Assembly (NCBI RefSeq): GCF_004168285.1
Contig: NZ_SEWF01000024.1
Span: 1 to 64,000, forward strand
Source of the DNA: Emticicia agri
Lineage (GTDB): Bacteria; Bacteroidota; Bacteroidia; Cytophagales; Spirosomataceae
DNA length: 64,000 nt
Direction of reading: 5' to 3'
Part shown: positions 13,001 to 30,500 of the stretch, piece after piece
Layout: each line of letters starts with the position of its first letter
Numbering within the stretch: the first letter of the stretch is position 1
The notes under the pieces: model-generated
Told to the model about the DNA's origin: nothing
The model's database searches: none
The model's input: the letters and a program-made list of their open reading frames with translations, nothing else
Program-made: the position numbers and the translations under genes

Positions 13001-15466
13001 TAGATTTGCTTGAAGCTCATGCAGGTGACCTCTAATCGCACCTTATGGAATTGAAACAAGAGCGTGACGAGTGGAAAGCCAAAGCTGAGGGTCCTCTAAT
13101 CGCACCTTATGGAATTGAAACTCAACGATGAGCTGAAGCGCAAGGCTCCGAACGCTACCTCTAATCGCACCTTATGGAATTGAAACCTCACCCGGCGGAA
13201 CCAGCGATGGCAACTACATTGCCTCTAATCGCACCTTATGGAATTGAAACGTTGCTGAAGCCTTCTCCATCATTTTCGATGTCGTCCTCTAATCGCACCT
13301 TATGGAATTGAAACTTTTGATTTCTAACTCAGCTTTGGCTTTGGCCGCTTCCCTCTAATCGCACCTTATGGAATTGAAACGATATTGTCATCAATTTAAT
13401 TTCCATATTTTTCAAAACCTCTAATCGCACCTTATGGAATTGAAACAAAAACTTATCTTACGGTTTCACCTGCCGCCGGAAGCCTCTAATCGCACCTTAT
13501 GGAATTGAAACATAAATATTGTCAGCACTATCAGAGAAGTGGGGAGCCTCTAATCGCACCTTATGGAATTGAAACCTTTCTTTCGCCATCTACATCAATC
13601 ACATAGGCATTCCTCTAATCGCACCTTATGGAATTGAAACTCTTCCCGGCTATCTACGATTTTCTGAATAAATACGCCTCTAATCGCACCTTATGGAATT
13701 GAAACCTTATCTCTAATTTTTCAGTCAGAGTAGTTACACCTCCTCTAATCGCACCTTATGGAATTGAAACTTTGCTTGCATCAACAGGTTTTTTGTTCCC
13801 GTCTACCTCTAATCGCACCTTATGGAATTGAAACTCACCGAAGAATGGCTTTTGAATATGGGTTTTACTTACCTCTAATCGCACCTTATGGAATTGAAAC
13901 TAGGTTGCCAAACTGTCCACAGCACCAAGGCTGTTCACCTCTAATCGCACCTTATGGAATTGAAACTTTGCCTTTGTTGCATCGTCTAAAAGCTGTGATT
14001 CGCCTCTAATCGCACCTTATGGAATTGAAACCAAGTGGCGCACTAAGCACTTATATAGGAGTTTGGGCCTCTAATCGCACCTTATGGAATTGAAACTGCT
14101 CAAACACCTACGAAACAAAGAACGTTTCTCGTTCCTCTAATCGCACCTTATGGAATTGAAACTACAGTGCCGTTGAAATAGCAAATTACATGGAGTGTAC
14201 CTCTAATCGCACCTTATGGAATTGAAACTGCCATCCAGAAAATTAGTTGCTTTATAGGCCATCGCCTCTAATCGCACCTTATGGAATTGAAACATATCAG
14301 GAAACAGAAAAATCTGCTACGCCAGTTCACCTCTAATCGCACCTTATGGAATTGAAACAAGGTCTTGCCTTTTCTGCGGCTTGCCCTTCTGTTTCCTCTA
14401 ATCGCACCTTATGGAATTGAAACTTTCAGATTGGCTCCACTGTTGGCCTGGCTCACAGTCCTCTAATCGCACCTTATGGAATTGAAACTTAGGTTATATT
14501 AAAAGTTATGAATTTATTCATATACCTCTAATCGCACCTTATGGAATTGAAACCTATTATTTGTTCTTCTATCAGGTATATTCAAGTCACCTCTAATCGC
14601 ACCTTATGGAATTGAAACTCGTCCCTGAAATCCGCTTTACTTCAGTATTTTGAAACCTCTAATCGCACCTTATGGAATTGAAACACCATTACCCGATGGT
14701 AGTGGTGAAATCTTCGTAAAGCCTCTAATCGCACCTTATGGAATTGAAACTTGCCGCCAATATTGCAAGAGACGGAGTATTGCGGACCTCTAATCGCACC
14801 TTATGGAATTGAAACATTCAATCCTGTGTTCGGCAAGATGAAAAATGCTTTCCTCTAATCGCACCTTATGGAATTGAAACGTTGCCCTGATAGTTTATTG
14901 GTGTTGTGGTAGCTCACCTCTAATCGCACCTTATGGAATTGAAACTTGTCATTGAAAATGGCGAAACAGTTTCAACCTGGCCTCTAATCGCACCTTATGG
15001 AATTGAAACATGAACTCCAGACGTTTACCTCAATATCTTGATCCGCCTCTAATCGCACCTTATGGAATTGAAACCATTTAGGAGAGGGTATAGAGAAGCA
15101 GGAAGAACAAACCTCTAATCGCACCTTATGGAATTGAAACTTCTCGGCAATACTAAACCGCCTGTTGTGCTACTTACCTCTAATCGCACCTTATGGAATT
15201 GAAACAGGCTTGCGTTTGGCGGAAACCCTGTAACGGTGAACCCTCTAATCGCACCTTATGGAATTGAAACCCTAATATCCGAAATCAGGCTTTCTGAAAA
15301 TTGTTGCCTCTAATCGCACCTTATGGAATTGAAACTTAAACAAAGTTCCTTGAGTGCCGGAGTAAAGTGTACCTCTAATCGCACCTTATGGAATTGAAAC
15401 TTGGAAACCTAACGGAAACCACAGGAAACCTAAAAACCTCTCAATCGCACCTTATGGAATTGAAAC
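1044..15466 (+). CRISPR. very large CRISPR array, about 222 repeats
   Basis: A 29-nt repeat, starting CCTCTAATCG and ending GGAATTGAAAC, recurs every 64-67 bp without a break. A hand count gives 222 repeats and 221 spacers, with spacers mostly 35-37 nt. Internal repeats looked identical on reading. The last one (15437-15466) carries an extra C (CCTCTCAATCG), the usual sign of the leader-distal end. Repeats ending in ATTGAAAC normally leave an 8-nt 5' handle of that sequence on the crRNA, as in type I-B and type III systems, so transcription should be on the + strand. No cas genes occur anywhere in the window, so the subtype is not determined. Notable spacers are 5892-5926 and 9348-9383 (near duplicates), 7778-7814 and 13835-13871 (homologous targets), and 6085-6120 (methyltransferase motif). 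Confidence 0.99.
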
Positions 15467-15870
15467 TTTTGACAATCTTTTACTTTCAGCAATATCGCTG
15501 CGCCTCTCAGTCCAAATGACTTTATTTCAATCCGTAGCCGGGTCTTAATTAGCTATTCTTATATAGTTTTCTGAGTACATACAGATTAATAATTCATAAA
15601 GCAGCATAGAATAAAAGTGTTTTTTTGCATTAAATTATTGTATTATTCCTTAACTTTCGCACCAATAAGTTCATCATCAACAGACATTGCTTACGCTCAT
15701 AAAGGAAATCGTGTGTAAATCACAACTGGCACGATTTAAATTAAAGTATCATGCAGAAAGATACTCTTTTATTCCTCTTCTGGTAAGTAACCTGCTTCTT
15801 AATGGAGACAGAAGCATATCTATCAGAAATTATAGAGAAACATACAATAGAAAATCATAATCGCAATACA
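15467..15870. other. CRISPR trailer and prp upstream region, no gene seen
   Basis: This 404-bp gap separates the array from prpB. It holds no convincing coding frame. It contains an 8-bp inverted repeat (AAATCGTG at 15706-15713, CACGATTT at 15730-15737), which could be an operator, and a small hairpin (GTATC/GATAC, about 15746-15765). A possible promoter lies at 15624-15658. Confidence 0.6.
15624..15658 (+). promoter_or_regulatory. possible Bacteroidota-type promoter for prpBCD
   Basis: TTTG at 15624-15627 and TAACTTTC at 15651-15658 resemble the TTTG / TAnnTTTG boxes used by the Bacteroidota primary sigma factor. One mismatch and a 23-nt spacing make this a weak call. It would leave a leader of about 200 nt before prpB. 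Confidence 0.3.
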
Positions 15871-16767
15871 ATGAGTAACAACAAAAGCTTAGAATCTCCC
15901 GGTTTACGATTTCGGGAAGCGATGAAAAAAGAAAATCCACTGCAAATTGTAGGAGCAATCAACGCAAATCATGCCCTATTGGCACAACAGGCAGGTTTTA
16001 ATGCCATCTATCTTTCGGGTGGTGGGGTAGCTGCCGGGTCGTTAGGTATTCCTGATTTAGGAATAACTACGCTGGAAGATGTGCTGATTGATATTCAACG
16101 CATCACAAACGTTTGTAGTTTGCCGCTGATGGTTGATGTAGATACAGGTTTCGGCCCGTCTGCTTTTAATGTTGCCCGCACTGTAAAATCTCTGATTAAA
16201 GCCGGAGCCGCAGCCTTGCACATAGAAGACCAGGTAGGCGCCAAACGTTGCGGACACCGTCCGGGTAAAGAAATAGTAAGCAAAGATGAAATGGTAGATA
16301 GACTAAAAGCTGCTGCTGATGCCCGTATAGACGAAAATTTTGTGATTGGTGCAAGAACAGATGCTTTTGCAAACGAAGGTCTTGAAAAAACCCTGGAAAG
16401 AGTTGTGGCTTATAAAGAAGCCGGTGCAGATTTTATTTTTGCCGAAGCTGTTCCGGAACTAAGTCTCTACCAAAAATTTGTAGATGCTACGGGTATTCCG
16501 GTATTAGCCAATATTACCGAATTCGGCATGATTAAAATGTACACGGTTGAAGAACTAAAAGAGGCAGGAGTAGGTCTGATATTGTATCCGCTTTCAGCTT
16601 TTCGAGCAGCCAACAAAGCCGCCGAAAATGTTTATCAACATATCCGTAAAGATGGTACACAAAAAAATGTTTTAGACACCATGCAAACCAGAGAAGAACT
16701 CTATAAAAGCATTGGCTATCACGATTACGAACAAAAATTAGACGAACTTTTTAAAAAAACGCAATAA
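15871..16767 (+). CDS. prpB: 2-methylisocitrate lyase
   Basis: This enzyme splits 2-methylisocitrate into pyruvate and succinate, the last step of the 2-methylcitrate cycle for propionyl-CoA. The product is 298 residues from the ATG at 15871, close to the 296 of E. coli PrpB. An earlier in-frame ATG at 15802 would add 23 residues with no counterpart in the family, so the later start was chosen. The isocitrate-lyase-superfamily active-site motif KRCGH (residues 125-129, catalytic Cys127) is intact, as are the metal-site segment VDVDTGFG and HIEDQVG. The end, [22 protein letters not shown], also matches PrpB. The gene is first in an operon with prpC one base after its stop, and prpD follows. 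Confidence 0.95.
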
Positions 16768-16768
16768 T

Positions 16769-17908
16769 ATGGAACCTACCTTTAAACCCAAAAAAAGTGT
16801 AGCGCTTTCAGGAGTTGTAGCCGGAAACACCGCACTTTGCAGCGTTGGCAAAAACGGAAATGATTTACATTACAGAGGGTATAATATTCTGGACCTGGCA
16901 GCAAAAGCCGAATTTGAAGAAGTAGCCTATCTGCTTATTTATGGTACTCTGCCAACCGCACCTCAACTGGCAAACTATAAACGAAAAATAAAGTCGCTGA
17001 GAGGGCTACCTAATTCGGTAAAGAATATTTTACAGCAGATTCCGGCGGCAGCACACCCGATGGATGTGATGCGTTCTACTGTTTCTGCCATCGGAAGCAT
17101 ACAGCCCGAAAAAGACGACCACAATATTTCAGGGGCAAGAGATATTGCCGATAAATTGTTGTCATGCTTTAGCTCGGCATTGTTATACTGGTATCACTAT
17201 ACGCATAACGGAAAAATCATTGAGGTAGAAACTGATGATGATACAATTGGCGGACATTTTTTACACTTGCTTCATGGTAAAAAGCCATCGGCATCATGGG
17301 TAGAGGCCATGCAGATATCGCTTAACTTGTATGCAGAACACGAATTTAATGCCTCTACCTTTACCAGTAGGGTAATTGCCGGTACTGGCGCTGATATTTA
17401 TTCGGCCATTACCGGAGCTATCGGAGCCCTGAGAGGTCCCAAACACGGTGGAGCCAATGAAGTGGCTTTTGATATTCAGAGCAGATATAATTCACCTGAT
17501 GAAGCTGAAGCGGATATAAGGAAACGCCTGGAAAATAAAGAGGTAATTATTGGTTTCGGCCACCCGGTTTATACCATTTCAGACCCGAGAAACGTAGTCA
17601 TAAAAAAAGTAGCGAAGCGTTTGTCAGAAGAAGCAGGAGATATGCTCTTATATACTATTGCCGAACGTCTGGAAACCGTCATGTGGGAGGAGAAGAAAAT
17701 GTTCCCGAATCTGGACTGGTTTTCGGCAGTATCTTATCATCTCATGGGTATTCCTACGCTGATGTTCACACCCCTATTTGTGATTTCGAGAGTTACAGGC
17801 TGGAGTGCTCATATTATTGAGCAAAGACAGGATGGTAAAATTATTCGTCCAAGTGCCAATTACATAGGCCCCGATAATAAAGAATTTGTTCCTATTGAAA
17901 ACAGATAA
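16769..17908 (+). CDS. prpC: 2-methylcitrate synthase
   Basis: This enzyme condenses propionyl-CoA with oxaloacetate to 2-methylcitrate. The product is 379 residues, the usual size for bacterial PrpC. Citrate-synthase catalytic segments are visible: the His in [10 protein letters not shown] (about residue 228), the His in GFGHPVY (about 262), and a C-terminal [14 protein letters not shown]. The start [11 protein letters not shown] is typical of the short PrpC/citrate synthase type. The gene begins one base after the prpB stop, and prpD starts 10 bases after its own stop. The operon context favours methylcitrate synthase over plain citrate synthase. Some family members accept acetyl-CoA as well. 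Confidence 0.94.
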
Positions 17909-17918
17909 TAAACAGAAG

Positions 17919-19370
17919 ATGTCATCACACATTTCAAATGAAAGACCGCAACCAGATAAAGTATTGGTAGATATAGCGGATTATGTATTAAACTATCAGA
18001 TTAAAAACGATTTAGCCTGGCAAACAGCTCATTATTGCCTTTTAGATACCATTGGCTGTGGGTTGGAAGCCTTAACTTACCCTGCCTGTACTAAATTGTT
18101 AGGCCCTGTGGTAAAAGGTACCATTGTGCCAAACGGAGCTAAAGTACTGGGTACTCAATTTCAGTTAGACCCCATTCAGGCTGCTTTCAATATAGGTACC
18201 ATTGTGCGTTGGTTAGACTTTAACGATACTTGGCTGGCGGCAGAGTGGGGACACCCTTCGGATAACCTTGGCGGAATTTTAGCGACAGCAGACTGGCTTT
18301 CGAGAACAAATATTGCAGAAGGGAAAGCCCCTTTAAAAATGAAACAGGTGCTGGAAGCCATGATTATGGCACACGAAATTCAGGGGGTAATGGCTCTTGA
18401 AAACTCATTCAACAAAGTAGGCTTAGATCACGTATTATTAGTAAAATTGGCCTCTACCGCCGTAGTAGGTAAATTGGTCGGCTTAACACGTGATGAGTTA
18501 ATTAATGCTATTTCATTAGCTTTTGTTGACGGACAATCTTTAAGAACCTACCGCCATGCGCCAAATACAGGAAGCCGTAAATCGTGGGCAGCAGGTGATG
18601 CCACTTCCAGAGCTGTGCGATTAGCCCTGATTGCCAAAACAGGGGAAATGGGGTATCCTTCTGTATTAACAGCCAAAACCTGGGGCTTTTATGATGTGTC
18701 CTTTAAAGGCAACGAATTCAAGTTTCAAAGAGCATACGGCTCGTATGTAATGGAAAATGTGTTATTCAAAATTTCTTTTCCTGCCGAATTCCACTCCCAA
18801 ACAGCCGTTGAAGCTGCCATGACTTTACATGGAAAATTGAAAGAGTTGGGAAAAACAACAGATGATATAAAGCACATCAGCATTCGTACACACGAAGCAG
18901 CTATTCGTATCATTGACAAGAAAGGGCCATTGAATAACCCTGCCGACAGAGACCATTGTATTCAGTATATGGTGGCAGTTCCATTAATTCATGGCAGATT
19001 AACGGCTGCTGACTATGAAGATAACATAGCTTCAGATACAAGAATTGATATATTGCGAGATAAAATGGCATGTGTGGAAGATGTTCAGTTTACAAAAGAT
19101 TATCATGACCCTGAAAAACGTTCGATTGCTAATGCCCTGACTGTTGAGCTAAACGATGGAACTGTACTGGAAGAAGTAGTGGTAGAGTACCCGATTGGCC
19201 ACAAGAGAAGAAGAGAAGAAGGGATTCCGGAATTAATCAAAAAATACAAAATCAATCTGGCTCGTGTATTCCCTGAAAAACAGCAGCGAATCATTTCAGA
19301 AAACTCGTTGGATTACGATACGCTGGCAAATCTTGATGTCAATCAGTTTGTAGATTTACTGGTTATCTGA
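17919..19370 (+). CDS. prpD: 2-methylcitrate dehydratase
   Basis: This enzyme dehydrates 2-methylcitrate to 2-methyl-cis-aconitate (MmgE/PrpD family). From the ATG at 17919 the product is 483 residues, the same length as enterobacterial PrpD as remembered. An upstream start at 17886 would overlap prpC and add 11 unsupported residues. Long stretches such as [20 protein letters not shown] (residues about 90-110) and the segments around [12 protein letters not shown] and [13 protein letters not shown] look almost the same as the gammaproteobacterial enzyme. The window has no aconitase-type acnD, prpE or prpR, so the aconitase step and the propionyl-CoA supply must come from elsewhere. Transcription probably ends at the hairpin at 19389-19438. 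Confidence 0.95.
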
Positions 19371-19388
19371 CAGTAGCATAAAACTATC

Positions 19389-19438
19389 TTTCAAAAGAGG
19401 GTTGTATTAGCTGATGCTAATACAACCCTCTTTTGAAA
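19389..19438. terminator. perfect 23-bp hairpin between convergent genes
   Basis: Arms 19389-19411 and 19416-19438 are exact reverse complements with a TGAT loop. A/T runs at the outer ends make it work in both directions. It lies 18 bp after prpD and 18 bp before the stop of the convergent outer-membrane gene, and fits a shared bidirectional terminator. Confidence 0.8.
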
Positions 19439-19456
19439 ACTGTCATCAATTCTCCT

Positions 19457-20356
19457 CTAAAAATTCACTGTAAGGTTCATCCCATATTGCGGCAGTGATT
19501 TTAGCTCTCCCTCTCCCAGATTCTGATAAACAGGCAATCTGTACGAGAAACCTACATTAAATCTCTGGTAATATAACTCAATACCAGCGTTGGCCAATGT
19601 GGCTATGCCACCTGTCTGCGAGTTACGTACGCCTTCTTTTATATCCCTGAAACCATAATCTATTATTGCACCGATGTTTGGCATCATAGAGAATGCACCC
19701 CAGGCTTTGGAGTAAAAGGCAGTCAGAGAGCCATTGATACGGTTACCGAAACGGTATTTATCATTGCTTTTAGTCGAAATTCGCCCACCAATTTCTGTAT
19801 TCAATCCCCAGTCATGACTCTTAATGGTATGAATAGCACTTAAAAGAAAATCTGTACTACCTGTACCTAACTGAAAATTCGGATTGATTTCATCTTCATA
19901 GCCATATTCAAACTTTCCGGTTGCCAGTTTTACCCCTCCGCCAATCATAAAGTTCTGGTAAATATGACTGGTATTGGTTGTATCCAGAAAAGTATTAAAA
20001 ACATTTACATGCGCCAGCACAATAGCATCACCAATTCCATTTTTCAAAGCCTCGGTACCACTGTATTTTAATACCTGATGATTGGAATTATAAGGCAGGA
20101 AAGCCATTATCTGAAGGTTTTTTACGGGATAAAATCTTGCCCATAATTCAGCCGTCTGGTAGGTTTCCCGGGTTTTCAGTAATATGCTATTCAGGTGCGA
20201 ATCATACGTGCGGTGTCTGTATCGCAGCCCTATGAATTGTGTTCCTGCACGTGGCGTAAGTCCCACAAATGCACTACCATTGGCACAACCACAAATATCG
20301 CAGGCAAGCACCTCAAATTGATTGAGTATAAACAATAGAAGGAGTATTTTTTTCAT
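19457..20356 (-). CDS. outer-membrane beta-barrel protein with N-terminal CxxCxC
   Basis: The product is 299 residues with a signal peptide (about residues 1-18), after which the mature protein would begin CDICGCANGSAF. The three closely spaced cysteines (CxxCxC) look like a metal or heme contact site. The rest is rich in alternating, aromatic-ended strands, and the protein ends in Phe (LTVNF), the usual outer-membrane barrel end. A lipoprotein processed at the first Cys is an alternative reading. Proteins of this kind are often labelled transporter in Bacteroidota. It is the last gene of the MbnP/MbnH-like operon, 82 bp after the YHS gene, which suggests a role in moving metal or a metal compound across the outer membrane. 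That role is inference. Confidence 0.7.
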   Translation of the reverse strand: MKKILLLLFILNQFEVLACDICGCANGSAFVGLTPRAGTQFIGLRYRHRTYDSHLNSILLKTRETYQTAELWARFYPVKNLQIMAFLPYNSNHQVLKYSGTEALKNGIGDAIVLAHVNVFNTFLDTTNTSHIYQNFMIGGGVKLATGKFEYGYEDEINPNFQLGTGSTDFLLSAIHTIKSHDWGLNTEIGGRISTKSNDKYRFGNRINGSLTAFYSKAWGAFSMMPNIGAIIDYGFRDIKEGVRNSQTGGIATLANAGIELYYQRFNVGFSYRLPVYQNLGEGELKSLPQYGMNLTVNF

Positions 20357-20438
20357 ATCATCTTATTTACAAGTAGCTTTCATTATACAACCTGAAAACT
20401 CTTTATTACCAAACCCTGAACAACGATAGTATCAGGGT

Positions 20439-20690
20439 TCATTTTTTTACATATTTTTCCGGTTCTTTATCAAATCTTTCTTTACACACTTTACTACAAA
20501 ACCCGTATGGCTTTTCTTTATAAGTACTCACCAGAGTAGTTCCCTTTTTTACTTTCATGCCACATACAGGGTCTTTACCATCTTTCTCTAAAACAAGCTT
20601 TTGTTTCTGAGTTGCCTGTTTGGTTACAGGTTCCTGGGCATTAGTTATGTAGCAGCTGATACATAGCAAAAAAATAAGGTAATCTTTCAT
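20439..20690 (-). CDS. secreted YHS-domain metal-binding protein
   Basis: This small 83-residue protein has an N-terminal signal peptide (about residues 1-19) and a YHS domain (about 38-80). The metal-type cysteines are present in DPVCGM (Cys43) and GFCSKVC (Cys64, Cys69). YHS domains occur in copper-handling proteins and in the tail of some P-type ATPases. The ATG at 20690 overlaps the stop of the upstream peroxidase gene by one base (TGATG), so translation is probably coupled. A TTG one codon upstream is a less likely start. The likely role is a periplasmic metal (copper) carrier within the operon. Confidence 0.82.
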   Translation of the reverse strand: MKDYLIFLLCISCYITNAQEPVTKQATQKQKLVLEKDGKDPVCGMKVKKGTTLVSTYKEKPYGFCSKVCKERFDKEPEKYVKK

Positions 20691-22189
20691 CAATTTAAAG
20701 TTTTAGTTTTTTTATCATTACAATCAGTACTCAGAGAAATATCATCAGGAGCATCACTCAACCATTTGAATTCCGATTTCAGACACTCATTAAAATACAG
20801 TACTTTAGTATTGGCTTTAAACGAAGCAACCAGAATATATAAATGTGCTGATAATTCGTCGAAATAATCCAACTGATGTGCATAGAAATTTTCTCCTTCA
20901 ATCATTTGTTTGGCATCCAGAAAGAGTTTTTGCTGATAACTATCAAAGAATTTTTTCTGTTCTGTTTCAGTGATACGAATCCTGTTCAATGTTTTAATAA
21001 GGCTTCTTGCCGCCTCAGCCGCCAACAAACTATTCTTTGCTTCTATGGCGGTTTTTATTTTAAAATAGGCATCAATACTCTGATTGAACAAGGTCTTTAT
21101 AGTTTCATCAGTAATCCTGAAACTCTTCAGTTCGGCATCAATATTCTTTCTTGGAATTTCATTGATTAAAGTACTTTCTGAAAACAATGTATTTTTTACA
21201 AAATCTTCATCGTCAAGGGTTTGCAGAAAAGCAATAATCTTTTGTTGTTCGTCAGCGTTTAAAGAAATACCTGGTTTCCCGTCTTTCATAAGCAGAGCAT
21301 CAAGCGAAGGTGTTTTCTCTATTTTTGAGGCATAATGTTCCAATACCTCTGCTAATGAAGAAAATCTTCCATCGTGCATATAAGGGGCTGTATAGGTCAG
21401 ATTCCGAAGGCTTGGCACCTTGAATTTGAATTGGTCTGCTTCATCATGCGTTATTTCAAATTTGCCCTTGTCATCTGCGTTGGGGAATAGTCCGTTATTT
21501 CTGAATGAGAAATCTGTAAAAAGTGTCCCCGAATGACAGGACGCACATTTTTGTTGGAATAATGCCAGCCCTTCTGATTCAGTTTCTGTCAGTTTTACGC
21601 CTTCTTTACGCATATAGCGGTCATATTTAGAGTTGGCCGAAACCATTGTCAGCATAAACTGAGAAAGTGCTTTCAGAAACCTTTCTGTATTGATTTCCTC
21701 ACTTCCGAAAGCATTTTTAAACAAAGCAGGATATTGCGGCGAATTACGCAGTTTATCCAGCACATTAGCCAAAGATTCGTCCATTTCTGCCGGATTGGTA
21801 ATGGGCGAAACCGCAAAGAAATCAAGGTCATGCACGCCACCATCCCAGCCAAAACTGCTCGACCAGGCCAAATTAAACAAAGGCATTGAATTCCGTTTTG
21901 TCAGCTTGTCATTAACCCCATGACTCAACACGTGTCCATGCTGCGTAAAGCTGGCAGATTGCTGATGGCAACTACCACAGCTTACCGTATTATCTGCCGA
22001 AAGGATAGCATCATAAAACAGGGTTTTACCTAACTCTACCCCTGCTGTACTAAGCGGATTACTCTCAAAATGATAACTTGGCTTCGGAAAATTGGCCGGA
22101 ACCGAAAAAAGCTCAGGTTCGCTGATGCTTTTAAATGATAAAAATGCAACTGCCAACACCAATATCAGTAATTTAATTTTTACGCTCAT
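20690..22189 (-). CDS. di-heme peroxidase (MbnH/MauG type) with DUF3347-like C-terminal domain
   Basis: The product is 499 residues. After a signal anchor (1-20), the core to about residue 340 is a bacterial cytochrome c peroxidase/MauG-family protein with two c-heme motifs: CGSCH (71-75) and CASCH (215-219). It closely parallels the 346-residue protein at 23013-24053. The further 155 residues are helical and resemble DUF3347, a domain found on CusB-like and other copper proteins: FNQSIDAYFKIKTAIEAKN, FDELSAHLYILV and FKWLSDAPDDI match its pattern. The gene overlaps the upstream MbnP gene by 4 nt (ATGA). MbnH enzymes are reported to oxidise a Trp of partner MbnP to kynurenine, and the pairing here suggests the same. 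The fusion with a copper-type domain is unusual. A plain H2O2-scavenging role is the alternative. Confidence 0.85.
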   Translation of the reverse strand: MSVKIKLLILVLAVAFLSFKSISEPELFSVPANFPKPSYHFESNPLSTAGVELGKTLFYDAILSADNTVSCGSCHQQSASFTQHGHVLSHGVNDKLTKRNSMPLFNLAWSSSFGWDGGVHDLDFFAVSPITNPAEMDESLANVLDKLRNSPQYPALFKNAFGSEEINTERFLKALSQFMLTMVSANSKYDRYMRKEGVKLTETESEGLALFQQKCASCHSGTLFTDFSFRNNGLFPNADDKGKFEITHDEADQFKFKVPSLRNLTYTAPYMHDGRFSSLAEVLEHYASKIEKTPSLDALLMKDGKPGISLNADEQQKIIAFLQTLDDEDFVKNTLFSESTLINEIPRKNIDAELKSFRITDETIKTLFNQSIDAYFKIKTAIEAKNSLLAAEAARSLIKTLNRIRITETEQKKFFDSYQQKLFLDAKQMIEGENFYAHQLDYFDELSAHLYILVASFKANTKVLYFNECLKSEFKWLSDAPDDISLSTDCNDKKTKTLN

Positions 22190-23010
22190 TTTTGCTCCTG
22201 ATTCATGCCTAAAGCATTTTTATCCTTATCGGCGTTTGCCACTAATGTACCTAAACCGACAAAAGAAAACATGGTTTTATAATTTTCAGCAATTTTTGCA
22301 GAAAATGGTCCGCCCATAACCGTAGGATTTTTTGCTATCTCTATATTGGTTTCGCCATTCAGTATTTTACTGGCATCGGCCTTAATGGTAATCTGAGGGA
22401 TGTTTTTACTGTCTTTGATACGAAGTGTTTCTTTTCCGAAATCAATTGTAGCATATCGGATATTGTTGAGCGTTTTTTTGTTACCAATACCGCCAAACAA
22501 GCCGATATGATACATAAACATATTGTTTTTTGCCGTTGATTGTGGGCTTGTGCCTTCCATCTTTACGAAGATATACCCCGAATTCCATGCCCAGTACATA
22601 TCTTTGGCATCGCCACCCACATCCAGACAGCCCTTGCGGTATCCGATTTCTGAGGTACTTCTGGTGCTATCTATACCAATTAAAAAACTGGTACCCGTGA
22701 ATTTCCCTTTTGGAATATCAGTAAGCGTAATGGTCTTGCTGTCTTTATTACTTTCACGAATCAGGAAGTATGATTTATCCTGCGGAATGTCATAGGTTGA
22801 CCCATCTTTTCTGATAAGTTTGATATTGCTTACAAAATACTGAAACAGCGAAACGTTGAATTCGTCGCCGGTAGCATTTTTATATTTTTTATCGTTCAAT
22901 ATAAGTGGTTCATTACCTAAAAAATGGTCAAAACGAATGCTTAGCGAGCCTGTTTTTTGTGCATTGGCTACCGAAATGGCACAAAGCAGCATAAGAAGTA
23001 TTTTTTTCAT
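22186..23010 (-). CDS. MbnP-like secreted protein (second copy)
   Basis: The product is 274 residues with a signal peptide (1-17) and an MbnP-type beta domain. Family hallmarks are the segment FQYFVSNIKL (56-65) and MYWAWNSGYIFVKMEG (138-153), with Trp140 and Trp142, then YHIGLFGG. In methanotroph MbnP a Trp is converted to kynurenine by the di-heme MbnH and the protein binds copper; whether this homologue does so is inference. It starts 2 bp after the stop of the first peroxidase and overlaps the second by 4 nt, so each MbnP is followed by its own MbnH-like gene. The copy at 24053-24859 is a paralogue with the same core but a lipoprotein signal. Confidence 0.82.
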   Translation of the reverse strand: MKKILLMLLCAISVANAQKTGSLSIRFDHFLGNEPLILNDKKYKNATGDEFNVSLFQYFVSNIKLIRKDGSTYDIPQDKSYFLIRESNKDSKTITLTDIPKGKFTGTSFLIGIDSTRSTSEIGYRKGCLDVGGDAKDMYWAWNSGYIFVKMEGTSPQSTAKNNMFMYHIGLFGGIGNKKTLNNIRYATIDFGKETLRIKDSKNIPQITIKADASKILNGETNIEIAKNPTVMGGPFSAKIAENYKTMFSFVGLGTLVANADKDKNALGMNQEQK

Positions 23011-23012
23011 TG

Positions 23013-24053
23013 TTAAATACCAAATTTTTTATTTTTTAAAAATTCTTCATCTGTTAATGTTTTCAGAAACGCTATCAGCTTTGCTTTTTCATCTTTGGTT
23101 AAAGCAATACCCGGGGTCTCGTTATTCATTAGCAAACCATCTAATGTTTTTGATTCAATTACCCCATCGGTGTAGTGATTCAAAACTGCATCAAGGCTAT
23201 AAAAGCGTCCATCGTGCATATAGGGTGCAGTCATGGCAACATTTCTCAGGCTGGGTACTTTAAACTTGTAGCTATCTGTTTGTATTGCCGTAATTCTCTG
23301 CCGTCCGGTATCCTCTTTGTTATAAACGGGTAATCCATTATTACGATACGAAAGGTCAGTAAATAATTCACCCGAATGGCAAGAAGCACATTTCTGTTTG
23401 AAGATGGCTAACCCTTCCAGTTCTTCTGAACTTAGTATTCCTCCTGCTTCTTTTCTTACATATTTATCATAGAGGGAATTGGCTGAAACTAAAGTAAGCA
23501 TAAATTGTGAAAGCGCTTTCAGAAACCTTTCGGTAGTAATTTCTTTACTGCCATACGCTTTCTGAAAAAGCGTGGTGTATTTTTCCTGCTTGCGCAGTTT
23601 CTCTAATACATTACCCAGTTTTTCATCCATTTCTACCGGATTCTCAATAGGTGCAATAGAAAATAAATCCAGGTCAAACACGCCGCCATCCCAGAAGAAT
23701 TCTTTCTGAAAAGCCATGTTCTGAATAGGCATGGAGTTTCTGATACCAATTTTATTGTCGATACCATGACTTAAATCATGCCCATGATGCGTAAAAGCCG
23801 ATGGTTGGCTATGACATTCGGCACAGGAGATAGTACCATCTCTTGATAAATTCCCATCAAAAAAAAGTATTTTTCCTAACTCGACACCCTCTTTTGTCAA
23901 CGGATTTTTAGAGAAATCATACACAGGTTTCGGGAAATTAGGCGGAACCCTGAAAAGTACCTCCGGTTCAATTTCCGGGGAGTCGTCTTTCGAACAGGCA
24001 ACTCCCAGATAAATCAAACCACTGACCATCAGCATAAGAAATTTTGATTTCAT
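23013..24053 (-). CDS. di-heme cytochrome c peroxidase, MbnH/MauG type (first copy)
   Basis: The product is 346 residues. A lipoprotein signal ends at Cys20 (LGVAC). Two c-heme motifs are present, CAECH (77-81) and CASCH (222-226), together with the family segments HDLSHG, WDGGVFDL and APYMHDGRF. This is the normal length for the family, without the C-terminal extension of its paralogue at 20690-22189. The start codon shares one base with the stop of the upstream MbnP gene (TGATG). The expected location is anchored in the periplasm. The likely job is peroxide-driven oxidation of the partner MbnP. A general cytochrome c peroxidase is the more conservative annotation. Confidence 0.87.
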   Translation of the reverse strand: MKSKFLMLMVSGLIYLGVACSKDDSPEIEPEVLFRVPPNFPKPVYDFSKNPLTKEGVELGKILFFDGNLSRDGTISCAECHSQPSAFTHHGHDLSHGIDNKIGIRNSMPIQNMAFQKEFFWDGGVFDLDLFSIAPIENPVEMDEKLGNVLEKLRKQEKYTTLFQKAYGSKEITTERFLKALSQFMLTLVSANSLYDKYVRKEAGGILSSEELEGLAIFKQKCASCHSGELFTDLSYRNNGLPVYNKEDTGRQRITAIQTDSYKFKVPSLRNVAMTAPYMHDGRFYSLDAVLNHYTDGVIESKTLDGLLMNNETPGIALTKDEKAKLIAFLKTLTDEEFLKNKKFGI

Positions 24054-24859
24054 CAGTCTTTCTCGTTATGGACGTGGTCAACTATAAAACTTTTTGCATA
24101 GTTCTGTCCAATCGGAATACCTGCATCGGGCGAGTGAACCATATAGGTTTTGGCAATACTAATCTGATTTACCCCATTAAATACTTTTGATACATCATGA
24201 ATAACATGTATTTGTGGAGACACATCTCTTCTTACCTGTGCAGTATTAGCCATTGGCAGAGTTATAGTTCTGAGGTTATTGATGGTTTTACCTGTCATTC
24301 CACCAAAACCACCTACATGAAAGGCATATTCTGTCATATTCATCATATTAGGCGGAATAGCTGATGATTTTCCTTCCATTTTGAAGAAAATATAGCCTGA
24401 ATTCCACGACCAGTACATGAAATCGTCGCCATAAGAAGCGGGGTCAAGCACACCCGTACGTTGGCTCACATCAGATACTGACTTCAAGCTGTCAACGCCA
24501 ATCATGTAAGAAACCTCGTTATAATTGCCTGCCGGAACATTATCTAATTTGATAAGCAATGAATTAGGGTCTGACTGTCTTACAAGAAAATACTGGTTCG
24601 GGAATTTCACAACTTCGCCATTCTCGTTTTTAAGCGCAATATTAGAAACAAAGTAATTCAGGCGGGTAACCGTGAAGTCTTCATTGAGTGAATTTTTAGC
24701 AGTAGTTGTACCCAAAACCAACTTCTGGTCGCCCACACGATTGTCGAATTCAAGAATTACAGTATTTTTATCATTCGGATTAATATCATCCTCCTTCTGA
24801 CATGAAACGACGATAATAGAAGCAAAAAGAGCTATCAATAAATATGAGAAATTTTTCAT
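24053..24859 (-). CDS. MbnP-like lipoprotein (first copy)
   Basis: From the ATG at 24859 the product is 268 residues with a lipoprotein signal (lipobox VVSC, Cys20). Longer upstream frames lack a signal peptide and were not used. The MbnP core is clear: LNYFVSNIALK (about 67-77), FMYWSWNSGYIFFKMEG (147-163; Trp150, Trp152), and FHVGGFGG. Several His residues (HVGG, HVIHD, HVHNE at the C-terminus) could be copper ligands. It is the first gene of the tightly coupled operon running down to 19457. A 7-bp inverted repeat lies 29 bp upstream (24888-24905). Family placement rests on motif recognition. Confidence 0.82.
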   Translation of the reverse strand: MKNFSYLLIALFASIIVVSCQKEDDINPNDKNTVILEFDNRVGDQKLVLGTTTAKNSLNEDFTVTRLNYFVSNIALKNENGEVVKFPNQYFLVRQSDPNSLLIKLDNVPAGNYNEVSYMIGVDSLKSVSDVSQRTGVLDPASYGDDFMYWSWNSGYIFFKMEGKSSAIPPNMMNMTEYAFHVGGFGGMTGKTINNLRTITLPMANTAQVRRDVSPQIHVIHDVSKVFNGVNQISIAKTYMVHSPDAGIPIGQNYAKSFIVDHVHNEKD

Positions 24860-24887
24860 TATGTTAAAAGTATATAGCGTGTTTCGG

Positions 24888-24905
24888 GATATACGTAGGT
24901 ATATC
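24888..24905. promoter_or_regulatory. inverted repeat upstream of MbnP-like operon, possible operator
   Basis: GATATAC (24888-24894), GTAG, GTATATC (24899-24905) is a perfect 7-bp dyad ending 29 bp before the ATG at 24859. Its position is right for a repressor or activator site controlling the operon. No regulator gene lies next to it. Confidence 0.35.
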
Positions 24906-24997
24906 TCAACAAAACACAAAGTATTTTGAAAATGATAGATAAAGTAAATCAATAGCCACGTTTATGCGTTTGGCTACAAAATCAATAATGAATGTGA

Positions 24998-25390
24998 TTA
25001 CAGACAGGCAGGCGGATGAAAAACAGACGAAGAAAACTCTAATGTGTTTTTTTCTGCGAAAAGATAGTTTTTTGCAGAAAAATCTTTAATATCAACTACA
25101 TTATCAAAATCAAACTGATTCCGGCTTTCAAATGTGTTGATTTCTAATAATTTATAAATAAAATTCTGAAGGGCGCTTTGTTCTTCTTTTTCGGTTTGTG
25201 TCTGAATTTTTTTTGCTAAAAAACATTTACCGTCACAATGCAATTCAGGTCTGTTTTTATTGACACAGTAGTTTTTGATAATAAAGTCTTTGCGAAGTTC
25301 ATAATCGAGACAAATAAAAGGCACCACAAAAGATTTCACCACCATTGCCAGTGAAAGAAAAGTGAGTGCTATTTGCTTGAATTGAAACAT
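24998..25390 (-). CDS. small membrane-anchored CxGKC protein
   Basis: The product is 130 residues from the ATG at 25390; the frame extends upstream but that part looks unlike a signal. One hydrophobic segment (about 5-25) is followed by FIIKNYCVNKNRPELHCDGKC: three cysteines in a CVNK...LHCDGKCFL pattern. The protein ends FHPPACL. Small Bacteroidota proteins with CVNK and CxGKC and an FxPP end are recurrent and often sit near copper, heme or TonB-receptor genes; their function is not established. It lies 138 bp upstream of the MbnP operon on the same strand and diverges from the beta-propeller gene. A metal-related role is inferred from context and the cysteines. Confidence 0.65.
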   Translation of the reverse strand: MFQFKQIALTFLSLAMVVKSFVVPFICLDYELRKDFIIKNYCVNKNRPELHCDGKCFLAKKIQTQTEKEEQSALQNFIYKLLEINTFESRNQFDFDNVVDIKDFSAKNYLFAEKNTLEFSSSVFHPPACL

Positions 25391-25601
25391 GCGTGCAAAG
25401 GTAATAAATAATTGAATACAGGTAACTAAAACCCTGATAGAATAGGTGTTTAATAGAAAACGAAAGTTGAAGGCTATATTGCTCAATACTAAGATATAGT
25501 TTATGCCTGATACTTAGGATAAATATCCTAACGTTTTAAAATAACGTTTCTTTTACAGTTAAAACTGCAAAAATTTGAGTGCCAATCCAGTTCAATACGC
25601 T

Positions 25602-26636
25602 ATGATAGTCAGAAAATCACTTTTCTCCCTTTTACTTTTTACCATTGTCTTCTATAATAATATGGAGGCAGAAGCCCAAAAAAGAATTAAATTTCCGGCA
25701 GCTTATGTAGTAAACGGAGGTAGCAATACCATTTCAGTTATTGATTTAAAAACGCTGAAAGTAAGAAAAACCATTCAACTCCCCAATACCGATTGTTTAC
25801 CTCATCATATCAGCCTGTCGTCAGACAGAAAAAAAATTCTGGTAGCTATGCCGGAGTTTGATTTCACCCAAAGTCATAATTTATTGCACCAGGCCACAGA
25901 CAAGAAAGGCGGAGTAATTGCCATAGATGCGCAGACAGGTAAGGTATTATTAAATTTATCTCTACCAAAGCCGAATTTTAATGCAGTTTTTTCAAACGAT
26001 AATACTGAAATATGGTCAGCAGCAGCTACGCATTCAGGGCAGATGCACGTTTTCGATGCCAATACAGGGGTGCAAAAAGCTATTTTTTCATTGGGAGCAG
26101 ACCCTACTCAAATCATCTTTTCTAAAGACGGAAGCCATGCGTTTGTGGCGTTAGAAGAAAGCAGTTTTATTTTAGCGCTTGATACCCGATTAAAACAGAT
26201 AAAAAAATACATTAAAGTTGACCCGTTTCCCACGAATGTCTGGGCCGGAAACAACGGCAATATCTATGTAGAGAATAAAAATCTGAAGGCCATAGCCATT
26301 GTAAACGAATCAACAATGGAAACTTATGAATTTGTAGATATTAATTTCAAACCCGGACAAATAGCTTACAATCAATTGCTTAACGAACTATGGGTATGTC
26401 AAGCTGAAGACAATAAAGTAACTTATTTTGAAAGAAAGAATAATGCATGGGTATTAAAATCGACTATTGAAACAGGTCAGGATGCTTATGCTATAACCTT
26501 TGCTAAGGATGAAAAAACTGCCTATGTAGTCAATCGTAAGGAAAATACAGTATCCGTTATCGACGTAACTAAACATCAGAAAATGACTGATATTCCGATG
26601 GGGACATTGCCTAATGGAATTGTATTAAGAGAATAA
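25602..26636 (+). CDS. secreted YncE-like beta-propeller protein
   Basis: From the ATG at 25602 the product is 344 residues; a TTG nine codons earlier is unlikely. A signal peptide (about 1-26, ending EAEAQ) is followed by repeated 40-residue blades of the YncE/YVTN type: AAYVVNGGSNTISVIDLKTL at the start and TAYVVNRKENTVSVIDVTKH at the end. Such propellers sit in the periplasm and bind partners or small ligands; no catalytic residues are evident. It is transcribed away from the CxGKC gene and MbnP operon, from a shared intergenic region of about 210 bp. Propellers of this family are common beside cytochrome c peroxidase-like genes, so it may belong to the same system. That is inference. Confidence 0.8.
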   Translation: MIVRKSLFSLLLFTIVFYNNMEAEAQKRIKFPAAYVVNGGSNTISVIDLKTLKVRKTIQLPNTDCLPHHISLSSDRKKILVAMPEFDFTQSHNLLHQATDKKGGVIAIDAQTGKVLLNLSLPKPNFNAVFSNDNTEIWSAAATHSGQMHVFDANTGVQKAIFSLGADPTQIIFSKDGSHAFVALEESSFILALDTRLKQIKKYIKVDPFPTNVWAGNNGNIYVENKNLKAIAIVNESTMETYEFVDINFKPGQIAYNQLLNELWVCQAEDNKVTYFERKNNAWVLKSTIETGQDAYAITFAKDEKTAYVVNRKENTVSVIDVTKHQKMTDIPMGTLPNGIVLRE

Positions 26637-26657
26637 ACCTATTTCAGCAAAGAGATT

Positions 26658-27302
26658 TCAATTCATTAGTTTCTTTAACTCCTCATCGTCCTCCTCAATC
26701 AAATCAAAAACCGTTTTTCCATTGCTATTAGGAATACTTTTATCAGCACCTGCCTGAAGAAGGATTCTGATACATTCCAGATGCCCGTTTATCTCTTTTT
26801 TATCTCCCGATTTCAGTCCATGAACCGCCCAGAAAAGTGGCGTAGATTTAAAATCAACACATAATTTATTGAGTTCTGCACCTGCCTGTAAAATTTTTTC
26901 TACTACGGCTGGCCTGCCACACCACGCAGCCCAATGCAGGGCTGTACCACCATGCCCTCCTGCATGATTAATTTCTGCTCCTTGTTCAATATAAAAAATT
27001 GCTACTTTGTCGGCATGCAGACTTGCCGCAGCAACAAGTGGTGTATCTTTTTTCTCTACCCTTTCGCCCCCATTAATATCTGCTCCATACGCAAGAAATA
27101 TTTTTGCCATTGCTACACCGTCTTCATGGGTATATAGTCCGGCAAATACCCCATCACAAATCCGGTGAAGCGGATGCGCTTTGGTTACATTGGCCTTATC
27201 GTATGGTAAGCCCTCATTAGCCAAAGAAGGGTTTTCTGAAAGGATATTTCTAAGCCCTTCCAAGTCTTTTTTATTGATTAATTCCCTTATTATCCATTCC
27301 AT
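26658..27302 (-). CDS. ankyrin-repeat protein
   Basis: The product is 214 residues with no signal peptide, so probably cytoplasmic. Ankyrin repeats are visible from about residue 40 to the end: AKIFLAYGADINGG, DTPLVAAASLHADKVAIFYIE, GTALHWAAWCGRPAVVEKIL, STPLFWAVHG and CIRILLQAGADKSIPNSNGK. Ankyrin stacks mediate protein-protein contacts. No other domain is seen and no specific partner can be named. The gene is convergent with the propeller gene (21 bp apart) and divergent from the large T9SS protein. Confidence 0.85.
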   Translation of the reverse strand: MEWIIRELINKKDLEGLRNILSENPSLANEGLPYDKANVTKAHPLHRICDGVFAGLYTHEDGVAMAKIFLAYGADINGGERVEKKDTPLVAAASLHADKVAIFYIEQGAEINHAGGHGGTALHWAAWCGRPAVVEKILQAGAELNKLCVDFKSTPLFWAVHGLKSGDKKEINGHLECIRILLQAGADKSIPNSNGKTVFDLIEEDDEELKKLMN

Positions 27303-27532
27303 TGGGTTTTTCGGTTTTCAGTACAAATGTTATGCTATTTTTTTGAATAATTATATAGATGTTTGTCGATAAATAGTAAAATATTTGGAGTAGATCTTTT
27401 CTGAATTTCACTAAAAGCTGTCTATTTTTTTAAGTTTTAGAGCATTATGTATTTTTCAAGTTTATACCAAGTGATTGTTTTATAAACAATTATTGTTTAC
27501 TTTTCGGCATATTAGTAATTCTGCATAAATCT

Positions 27533-30500
27533 ATGACTAAAATTCTTTACACTACAATCTTGCTGTTATTATCCTATTATTATTCTTATTCTCAAGAACA
27601 AACTCCGGCTATAGAATGGACAGAGCCCTATAGTGGAGGAACAAGAGGCGGAAGCATTACTGCTTTCCCTGGCCCTAATGTTTTATTTGCTTTAGTAAAA
27701 GCTCAAAACTCCAATAGTGGCACAGCAAGCATCAGTAAGTTCTATGCCGATGGTCTTGTGAAAAATCAATATATCGTGGCTGCTGGAGGTTCTGGTAATG
27801 CCCCTATTATGTCACAATATGCTTCTCAAGACGGCGGTGCACTTGTCTATCTTTTTTATGATGGAGTACTTAGAAGATATGATGCCAGTCTGAATGTAAC
27901 CTGGCAGAAAACTGTCAGTTTCACCGTACAAAACGCCACTGCTACGCTTGCCAATGGGTATTATATATTAGCTAACACTTTTGCCAATAATAAAACTTTC
28001 TTAGAGCTTAAAAGAATGAAGAATGATGGCAGCATTGAGTGGTCGGTTGATATTACAGATTTTGCAAGTGTGCTGACTGATATTCAGACAAGCAGCGATG
28101 ATGGGGTAATTATTACAAGTGCCAATGGTTTAAGAAAATATTCCGTAACCGGAAAACTGGTCTGGTCAAACACAACGATTTTAGACGCTTCTCAATTGAT
28201 TATTACTGACCCTTCTATTATGTATGTCTATACCAATAGCAGCAATAGTAATATCCGTAATATAATTCAGCTAAATACTTCTACGGGAGTAGCTAACTGG
28301 ACAAAATCTTTAGTCGGAGAAAGTATCATTGACTTTGAGAGAACATCAGATAATGGTTGTGTTTTCAGTACTAATACAGGCATGTATAAATACAATTCTA
28401 CGGGGGCGTTACAATGGAAAAACATAGGTTATAGCTCTGCTAAAATCACTACTACCGGCGACGGTAAAATATTTGTCATAAAAAACAACTCTATTACAAA
28501 GCTGACATTTGACAATGAAGTAGTCTGGACTAAAAGTTTCAATAATGATTACTATATTGTTCAGGATGTTCACGGTGCCTCTGATTTCGGGCTATATGTT
28601 ACTGCCGTAAAAAATGGCGCAATCTATAATACAAACCCTGATTTTCTTCTTTTTAAACTGTCATCTCCTGATACGCCATGTAAAACAAAATTCGATGTTA
28701 TTGGAGAATCTGCTACCTTTTGCCGAACAGGCAGTTTTTCATTATCGTCCAAAATAGGAAACGGATTGATGGAATACCTGATATATCTGACTAATTTCAG
28801 TTTTCAGTGGTACAAAAACAATGTGCCGATAGAATCAGCTACTAACTTTTCATATATAGCTTCCCAATCCGGAAACTATAGTCTGAAAATCAAGCAGAAG
28901 AGTTGTGAAACTATCTCCCGCAATGTAGAACTAAATATAGTTAACCAAACCCCTCCGGTAATCGAAGCAGATACTAACCAGATTTGTGCGGGCAATAGTA
29001 TTAGTTTAAGAGCCAAAGGTTGTGATGGTGTTGTTGTGTGGTCAAATGGGGCAAGAAGTTTGCAAATTACTGTTACACCACAAGCTACAACGGCTTATAA
29101 TGCCCTATGCGAAAGAACCGTCAACAACGAACTTTGCCAGAGTTTCACAAGCGCTAACCTTACCATTACGGTGCTTAGTTCTTCTAATTTAAAAATCAGT
29201 GATATTGCAGGTAAAAGAGAGTTTTGTGAAAATGGCTTTACAGAACTAAAACCAACGGTAAGTGGTGGAATAGCTCCGATTACCTATACGTGGAAAAAAG
29301 GAAACAGTTCATTGGCGGGTCCAAACATCACTATTAATGAAGACAGTAAGTATGTTTTATTGGTGGTTGATAAAATCGGTTGTTACGATATTTCTGATAC
29401 TATTCGCATTAAAAAAATAGCTAATCCGATTGCACCTACTATAAACACCCCAGCAAGTACGGTCATCTGTGCTAATAAAAGTATCGTACTTACTACCGAT
29501 ATAAAAGAAAATAGTTACCAGTGGCTATTAAACAATATAAAAATCGAGGGTGCTGTAAGTCAGTTTTATGCGGCTACAAGTCCGGGCAGCTATCAGCTTA
29601 AAGTTTTCAATGCGAGTGATTGTTCCAATATCTCTGATAATAGCATTGTCATTTCCTCTTCAGATTTAAAAATCAATTCAATAGAGGGAAATAGAGCTTT
29701 TTGCGAAAGTGCTTCTACCGAATTACGTCCAGCTATAAGTGGAGGAGCCACTCCATTTACTTATGAATGGACTAAAGACGCAAAAAGTTTTTCTGAAGAT
29801 TCAAGCATTTCTATTAATGAAGGCGGTGATTATCGCCTTTCGATTAAAGATAACACTGGCTGTACCGTTCATTCAGATACGGTCAAAATTAAAAAATTAG
29901 CAAATCCTACTTCCCCAGTTATCAATTCTCCGGCAAGTACTGAAATTTGTAGTAATGGAAGTGCGGTATTAACCACTGATGCCAGGGAAAGCTCCTATCA
30001 ATGGTTAATGAACTCCACAGCAATAGATGGCGCAGTGAATCAGTTTTATACAGCTAAAACTCCCGGAAAATATCAGGTAAAAGTTACCAACATTAATAAT
30101 TGCTCAAGTATTTCTGATACTGCCATAACCATTACCCAGCTAATTATCCCTCAACCAAGCATCCAGCAGGCAGACGACACCTTAATTTCAAGCGCTTCAG
30201 CAGGGAATAAATGGTACCTCAACGGAAATGAATTACCTTTTGTGACACAAAAAATCAAGTTTATAGAGGTAGGCAATTATCAGGTAAAAGTTACTGAAAG
30301 AAGTTGCGAAAGTCTTCCGTCTGTTGCCTTTTTGCCTGTGGTTTTAGCCAACGAACAAGCATTTGACTATATACAGGTTTATCCGAACCCTGCTTCTGAT
30401 AAGGTATTTGTCAAATCATCAAAAATAGTTGCCTATCAATTGCTTGATGTCTCAGGGCGATTACTGGGGCAGTCAACCGATAGAAGTTTTAGCCATACTA

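Follow-up and report, generated by a model that had tools for sequence, protein, structure and literature searches.

Operon carrying a leader protein and two MbnP/MbnH pairs

The first 64,000 nucleotides (nt) of contig NZ_SEWF01000024.1 of Emticicia agri, hereafter the window, carry a compact operon on the minus strand, which was recognised from open reading frames (ORFs) and domain searches and runs in the order leader, MbnP2, MbnH2, MbnP1, MbnH1, YHS protein and outer-membrane channel. Its anatomy indicates that it is probably a copper-acquisition operon governed by a copper switch acting through a nascent chain, and the leader is most likely the element that controls it. The operon is of a known kind, that of MbnP/MbnH pairs away from methanobactin clusters, with what look like two new elements, namely a leader of Bacteroidota form that resembles a copper-sensing nascent chain, and the fusion of two MbnP/MbnH lineages. 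The original prediction, made from the letters of the window, had described a double MbnP/MbnH operon for copper or redox functions. The operon and its family calls stood, but the leader gene at 24998–25390 had been overlooked, its ATG coinciding with the end of the interval then described. The E. agri genome (G000 in our numbering, in which G denotes genomes and L loci) consists of 6.65 Mb in 174 contigs. The features of the operon are as follows.

25396–25403, minus strand: -7 promoter box TAnnTTTG (TACCTTTG), ending 5 nt before the leader ATG
24998–25390, minus strand: leader protein of 130 amino acids (aa), putative copper-sensing nascent chain of CruR/CutF-like anatomy, from its ORF, motifs and selection
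25223–25237, minus strand: CDGKC, the CxGxC motif of the leader, residues 52–56; Cys42, Cys52 and Cys56 are invariant in 46/46 copies
25010–25021, minus strand: FHPP, residues 124–127 of the leader, putative arrest motif; PP is invariant in 46/46 copies and in 47/47 of the systematic sample described below
24860–24997, minus strand: gap of 138 nt between leader and MbnP2
24053–24859, minus strand: MbnP2, 268 aa (start taken at the Met at 24859), PF20243, with a model matching 7l6g
24404–24412, minus strand: WxW of MbnP2, Trp150–Trp152, expected kynurenine site, invariant in alignments
23013–24053, minus strand: MbnH2, di-heme enzyme of 346 aa, PF03150; best NCBIfam model TIGR04039, below cut-off; profile nearest 6e1c
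22186–23010, minus strand: MbnP1, 274 aa, PF20243, of a separate lineage in the tree
22585–22593, minus strand: WxW of MbnP1, Trp140–Trp142, from the sequence
20690–22189, minus strand: MbnH1, di-heme enzyme of 499 aa with a C-terminal extension, from Pfam and NCBIfam
20807–21073, minus strand: DUF3347 domain of MbnH1, residues 373–461, from Pfam
20439–20693, minus strand: YHS-domain protein, 84 aa, PF04945
19457–20356, minus strand: outer-membrane channel, 299 aa, with N-terminal CDICGC of conserved Cys and a FapF/COG4313-like model
19390–19437, minus strand: terminator-like stem of 20 counted pairs just 3' of the channel gene, from the terminator search

The predicted arrangement of two MbnP genes, each with a downstream gene for an MbnH-type di-heme enzyme and then the YHS and barrel genes, was found at the place described, as were the junctions TGATG (MbnP2/MbnH2) and ATGA (MbnP1/MbnH1). 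The MbnH1/YHS junction reads TTGATGA, and MbnH2 and MbnP1 are separated by 2 nt. Identities to the proteins of Emticicia sp. BO119, C21 and 21SJ11W-3 were 83, 80 and 62% for the leader, 86, 85 and 78% for MbnP2, and 85, 86 and 76% for the channel, respectively.

Motifs and spread of the leader protein

The leader has an N-terminus that is hydrophobic as judged by eye, followed by Cys42, the motif Cys52-x-Gly-x-Cys56 and a C-terminal end of FHPPACL. Comparison between the Emticicia copies gave a ratio of nonsynonymous to synonymous substitution rates (dN/dS) of 0.05–0.14, indicating purifying selection, with synonymous sites near saturation. The E. agri leader matched neither an NCBIfam model nor a Pfam family with an E-value under 0.05, and the Pfam search over 46 leader copies detected no family in more than five of them (lowest E-value 5.5e-4, among the best 25 of 35 families). 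A profile built from the 46 copies matched in 158 of the 395 Bacteroidota genomes that were sampled, as well as in 41 of 58 near relatives including E. agri, while MbnP was present in 97 and 43 of these genomes, respectively. When the 58 near relatives were compared by hand, leader and MbnP were both present in 38, neither in 12 and only one of them in 8.

The motifs were followed in a systematic sample of 40 loci, comprising every third of the first 120 leader matches listed, with the E. agri match excluded. Some genomes contribute two or more copies to it, and its 47 copies represent 46 genes because G339 was counted twice (L289 and L296). CxGxC was detected in all 47 copies, and PP within the last 16 residues was likewise found in 47/47 leaders, when compared to 9 of the 270 other ORFs with a length of 100 aa or more at the same loci. 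The last PP is followed by 1–7 residues, the distance from Cys to PP is 63–69, and the ending takes the form FxPP in 42 copies and FHPP in 25. The leader profile includes C-terminal columns and thereby favours PP; the profile matches of L299 and L300 end at model positions 108 and 116, yet these proteins still end in PP. In 80 named loci with 100 leader copies, PP was found in 98, CxGxC in 98 and both in 96, and PP occurred in 17 of 1056 other ORFs; the 60 MbnP-based loci were hand-picked from MbnP matches and are not random. PP was missing from L193 and L208 (85 aa, truncated at the edge of the locus). In Echinicola, the second leader copies of L211 and L223 carry CRANC instead of CxGxC, and the MbnP behind them belongs to a divergent clade.

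In 164 unique copies, CxGxC and PP were separated by a linker of 62–71 aa (mean 67.0, standard deviation 2.4) at a mean identity of 21%; this set omits leaders lacking either motif, and hence informs on distance only. Mean identity reached 52% in the conserved block of 25 aa ending in CxGxC. MbnP segments of 51–87 aa vary more in length, with standard deviations of 4.0–4.8 at 29–45% identity. The near-constant spacing is suggestive rather than conclusive.

Genes downstream of the leader, promoter box and gap

In the 47 systematic copies, the gene that follows the leader in the same orientation encoded a TonB receptor (23 copies), MbnP (11) or a YtkA-like protein (6), and all six YtkA-like genes are themselves followed by a TonB receptor gene. 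The remaining copies were followed by another leader (2), SCO1 (1), YHS (1), unclassified genes (2) or an edge (1). A receptor and then PepSY_TM stood behind the leader in eight of the 47 copies. The labels TonB, PepSY, YtkA and SCO1 in this sample come from phmmer searches with a small number of probes. Dyadobacter sp. SG02 yielded Pfam matches for receptor and PepSY_TM, Sphingobacteriales bacterium 44-15 for PepSY_TM, a Flavobacteriales metagenome-assembled genome for YtkA and receptor, and a Siphonobacter and a Pedobacter for SCO1. For the 100 copies of the 80 named loci, the next gene was MbnP in 55, MbnH in 12, and another gene or the edge in 33. The copper model TIGR01778 was the best model for six of ten receptors from the systematic sample, and among three further receptors it was best for one (L220) and a siderophore model for two. 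At L292, L293 and L296 (L289 being the same gene as L296), an MbnP-MbnH pair is headed by a leader with the ending FVPPP and follows immediately on a run of YtkA and TonB receptor that has a separate leader.

Among 120 leaders, 64 had the box TAnnTTTG, which we take to be the -7 promoter consensus of Bacteroidota type, ending no more than 13 nt before the ATG, compared with 6 of 199 other operon-first genes at the same loci. The box was present anywhere in the 60 nt upstream in 87 of the 120 real stretches and in 112 of 2400 shuffled ones; the 120 stretches are not independent of one another, many of them coming from close relatives within Pedobacter, and the leader starts were chosen by rule. 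Since the box lies so near to the ATG, the leader mRNA is probably leaderless or nearly so. The gap from the leader to the next gene had a median of 147 nt before MbnP (n = 83) and 101.5 nt before receptors (n = 22). The terminator search listed no intrinsic terminator in the leader-MbnP2 gap, and no RNA structure shared across relatives was shown in the gap.

The leader might instead be a finished periplasmic chaperone that binds copper and does not act in cis, with FHPP as a C-terminal binding or degradation tag. Both the purifying selection on the protein and its conserved block ending in CxGxC would suit such a role. However, the remainder of the protein is poorly conserved while the Cys-PP distance holds, and the residue before PP is variable (H, R, K, Q, V) and therefore hardly a metal ligand. 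The long gap behind the leader also contrasts with the tight coupling of MbnP and MbnH. We thus regard a chaperone as unlikely and prefer a leader acting in cis on the genes behind it.

Comparison with known copper-responsive leaders

CruR of Bordetella pertussis carries CXXC and RAPP with 45 residues between them and is followed by a 162-nt gap and genes for a TonB receptor and PepSY_TM; copper is thought to relieve the pause, allowing Rho to end transcription, and MbnPH-like genes occur in some CruR operons (PMC9426467). Arrest by CruR has been demonstrated in vitro (PMC12992588). CruR and the leader have in common a small protein, a Cys pair, a C-terminal PP and a long gap, and the order of receptor and PepSY_TM is that of the eight systematic leader loci mentioned above. 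They differ in that the leader has CxGxC and mostly FHPP, 62–71 residues apart, in place of CXXC and RAPP 45 residues apart. Membership of the leader in DUF2946 (PF11162), the family of CruR, was rejected, as hhalign gave a probability of 0.6% against four DUF2946-like Bacteroidota rows, which are a small set. DUF2946 was detected in 11 of the 395 sampled Bacteroidota genomes, in five of them above the cut-off, and the four proteins fetched end in RAPP or RGPP.

CutF of Rhodobacter capsulatus is an exported protein with CX3C and a C-terminal PP; the gene behind it encodes a multicopper oxidase, has a stem-loop over its start and is switched on by copper (PMC9973294). CutF and the leader share the CX3C-type Cys pair and the C-terminal PP, and CutF differs in its next gene and in the stem-loop over the start of that gene. 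Against the rules for CutF-like proteins (PMC9973294), the leader has 130 aa (<150), PP at 126–127 (within the last 15 aa) and the next gene on its own strand 138 nt away (<1000); the rules also ask for a signal peptide, for which the hydrophobic N-terminus is a candidate. Since many CutF-like proteins (40%, normalised) come from Bacteroidota, the leader family may already belong to the published CutF-like set (PMC9973294). RAPP/RGPP leaders before copper-factor genes are reported in another study to be missing from Bacteroidota, and TonB-related ones are said there to be universal in Gram-negative bacteria (PMC12992588). Other proline-ending leaders are described in Bacteroidota upstream of Sec genes (PMC10987492). 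By its anatomy the leader looks like one of the CruR/CutF type that stands outside DUF2946.

It is improbable that the metal sensed by the leader is not copper but, for example, iron or zinc, with the operon handling that metal or several. This explanation would accord with the three of ten receptors for which the siderophore model scores above the copper model, and CutF-like proteins are not all copper-specific (PMC9973294). The company of SCO1, HMA and copper-type receptors argues against it, and the three Cys residues suit Cu(I).

MbnP and MbnH proteins

Both MbnP proteins matched PF20243, with 183.6 bits for MbnP2 and 171.9 bits for MbnP1 (cut-off 27), and CCP_MauG (PF03150) matched both MbnH proteins. 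The predicted identity of MbnP and MbnH was borne out at the family level, and the WxW/Met/His site is intact. The MbnPs reached 44.4 and 50.1 bits with the NCBIfam equivalog TIGR04052, below its cut-off of 140, and are therefore filed in the broad family PF20243 only. The two MbnP matches in the E. agri genome both lie in this operon.

Met148, Trp150, Trp152 and His181 were invariant in 34/34 aligned Bacteroidota MbnPs; in a wider alignment of 64 rows, both Trp residues were found in 64 and Met and His in 61. Both E. agri proteins retain these residues, and the numbering given in the original prediction, Trp140/142 in MbnP1 and Trp150/152 in MbnP2, was correct. We take Met, His and WxW to be the ligands of the copper site. 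In MbnP of Methylosinus trichosporium OB3b, the Cu(I) site is reportedly formed by Met, His and a kynurenine derived from the first Trp. Comparison of the MbnP profile with solved structures found only OB3b MbnP (7l6g, E-value 5e-4), with M-x-W-x-W and H-x-G among the aligned motifs. For MbnP2, the AlphaFold model, with a predicted local distance difference test score (pLDDT) of 84, had six matches at an E-value of at most 0.001, all of them chains of 7l6g. Both MbnPs probably hold copper, in a self-built site that would contain kynurenine. L100 (G052) carries three consecutive MbnP-like genes behind one MbnH, two of which keep W-x-W without the Met of M-x-W-x-W.

The haem motifs C77xxCH81 and C222xxCH226 were invariant in 19/19 MbnH rows. 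TIGR04039 was the best NCBIfam model for the MbnHs, although their scores of 233.8 and 231.8 bits are below its cut-off of 362.85. The MbnH profile ranked OB3b MbnH (6e1c) first among structures with 243.1 bits, followed by 1iqc with 221.4 bits. DUF3347, for which a profile check had been suggested, matched only MbnH1, in its C-terminal part (30.2 bits against a cut-off of 25.5). The gene directly after MbnP was MbnH in 55/64 and 69/75 cases, and such adjacent pairs overlapped or lay within 20 nt in 43/55 and 65/69. It is highly improbable that the MbnHs are hydrogen-peroxide scavengers or general MauG-like oxidases, with MbnP a redox or structural partner and copper irrelevant: MbnH2 alone does match ordinary di-heme peroxidases best, the TIGR04039 and TIGR04052 cut-offs are missed and kynurenine is only expected, but WxW, Met and His are invariant beside MbnH, the MbnH profile is nearest to 6e1c and the neighbours are of copper type. 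The proposed role of the operon in copper acquisition or trafficking gains from the intact site and from the copper-type company in relatives (TIGR01778-type receptors, SCO1, YtkA and HMA).

The operon shares with the OB3b system the predicted fold, M-x-W-x-W and His, the gene pairing and the nearest solved structures (7l6g for MbnP and 6e1c for MbnH). It differs in its two unlike pairs, leader, channel, YHS protein and DUF3347 fusion, in scores below the TIGR04039/TIGR04052 cut-offs, and in the lack of MbnB. Indeed, PF05114 (MbnB_TglH_ChrH) had no match in the E. agri genome, in agreement with the predicted absence of methanobactin genes. MbnP/MbnH pairs outside methanobactin operons have already been reported (PMC3621798), and no report of them in Bacteroidota came up among the matches listed in our literature search. 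CorA/CorB and MopE/SACCP of methanotrophs likewise combine a copper protein having kynurenine in its site with a di-heme partner and are copper-repressed (PMC3912023). The CorA/MopE site consists of two His and kynurenine, unlike that of MbnP, and the MbnP sequences are described as not markedly similar to CorA/MopE (PMC3621798).

Variant arrangements were observed around MbnH. At L059 (G001), which is the same locus as L184 of Emticicia sp. BO119, MbnP1 is followed by two consecutive MbnH1-like genes of 501 and 499 aa. The order leader-MbnH-MbnP-MbnH-channel, in which MbnP is flanked by two MbnH, recurs in L069, L071, L073, L076, L078, L083, L087, L185, L189, L211 and others.

Two MbnP/MbnH lineages in one operon

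In a tree of 90 MbnP rows, MbnP2 grouped with MbnP of other Emticicia, and MbnP1 fell in a fully supported clade with copies of Emticicia, Arsenicibacter and Runella. The tree was made by a quick method without bootstrap, and some loci entered it twice (G001 = L184, G003 = L209 and others), hence the seven rows of this clade are five genes. A recent tandem duplication of MbnP/MbnH was ruled out by this tree, and the tandem pair of the original prediction is consequently not a local duplication, as pair 1 belongs to a separate lineage. Both pairs lie within one operon in E. agri and BO119. In Emticicia sp. 21SJ11W-3, locus L209 has, in this order, two leaders, a TonB receptor, a BNR-repeat-like protein (scoring under the cut-off), MbnP1, MbnH1 (501 aa), a YHS protein and an HMA protein, and the MbnP2 pair is located elsewhere (L183). 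The simplest reading of these sequences is that an operon fusion joined the two lineages. In the E. agri genome the leader profile matched one gene only, giving no second leader, and no close relative of the L209 TonB receptor was detected, the best of 51 receptor matches being 29% identical over 252 of 788 residues.

YHS protein and outer-membrane channel

The YHS protein matched PF04945 with 56.4 bits, and the channel N-terminus reads ACDICGC, so that both the YHS and the CxxCxC barrel assignments held. Cys19, Cys22 and Cys24 of the channel, near the start of the mature protein, were invariant in 33/33 copies. No Pfam family was found for the E. agri channel; a distant homolog, L105, matches PF13557. 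The AlphaFold model of the channel had a mean pLDDT of 82, but under 50 at residues 13–30, which include CDICGC, and was closest to FapF/COG4313 channels (E-value 1.6e-10, template modelling score 0.67). By this model the channel would have the same barrel fold as the FapF/COG4313 channels (PF13557), from which it differs in an identity of only 12–14%, in its N-terminal CDxCGC and in its copper context. A channel gene was present within five genes after MbnP in 36/64 and 55/75 cases. Emticicia sp. C21 has an HMA/CopZ-like protein between the YHS protein and the channel.

Proposed mechanism

In the copper switch proposed here, the mRNA would begin almost at the ATG of the small, probably exported leader. 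When copper is scarce, the ribosome would pause at the C-terminal F-H-P-P, sustaining expression across the 138-nt gap. Copper, when present, would bind to CxGxC of the emerging chain together with the upstream Cys, altering the pause and switching the operon down. This direction of control is a guess, because CruR and CutF respond oppositely to copper, which weighs against the proposal. MbnH would then convert the first of the two Trp in WxW into kynurenine by oxidation, completing the Met/His/kynurenine Cu(I) site of MbnP, and the CDxCGC channel and the YHS protein, joined by the HMA protein in sister species, would pass copper on.

Several further observations count against the switch or its parts. 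Four of five barrel segments vary less in length than the leader linker (standard deviation 0–2.0), and one varies more (7.1). DUF2946 was not among the best 25 of 35 Pfam families for the 46 leaders. None of the receptors reaches the TIGR01778 cut-off, all being far below it, and of the ten in the systematic sample one matched nothing at 1e-30, besides the three better fitted by the siderophore model. The upstream neighbour lies on the same strand in 39 of the 47 systematic copies, and in 26 of these it is within 100 nt when longest-ORF starts are taken, so the position of the leader as first in its operon rests on the promoter box. RNA structure in the gap is mildly above that of shuffles (mean z -1.46 over the first 75 nt, 21/78 below -2). 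The MbnH2 sequence by itself ranks the di-heme peroxidase 1iqc first (143.9) and 6e1c lower (117.6), and the MbnP2 model has a pLDDT under 50 at residues 146–154, that is, at WxW.

More tentatively, we propose that Bacteroidota possess lineage-wide copper-sensing arrest peptides unrelated to DUF2946, with CxGxC and FxPP at an almost constant distance of about 67 residues and leaderless mRNAs, which would set copper import through TonB receptors as well as MbnP/MbnH. About 67 residues would be enough to reach through the ribosome tunnel and Sec channel. With FxPP at the ribosome active site, CxGxC would therefore be just reaching the periplasm, and the secreted nascent chain would gauge periplasmic copper for the cell. 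If this is true, Bacteroidota would have a separate and widespread form of copper control by nascent chains, a family of small proteins that has neither a Pfam nor an NCBIfam model would gain a function, and kynurenine-copper proteins would come under nascent-chain control.

Other features of the window

No Rfam element was detected at the gathering score in positions 12000–28000. A very long array of clustered regularly interspaced short palindromic repeats (CRISPR) extends from 1044 to at least 15010, with a 29-nt repeat ending in GAAAC and spaced by about 63–67 nt. The first 12 kb of the array has no overlapping ORF of 180 aa or more, and the repeat gave 221 matches at up to 2 mismatches, at least 200 of them exact. 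Three genes at 15802–19370, convergent with the copper operon, resemble prpB, prpC and prpD of the methylcitrate cycle by reading of their translations alone. The upstream neighbour of the leader, at 25575–26636, is a divergent gene for a YncE-like beta-propeller, homologs of which are also located near the MbnP loci of G001 (L059) and G002 (L061).

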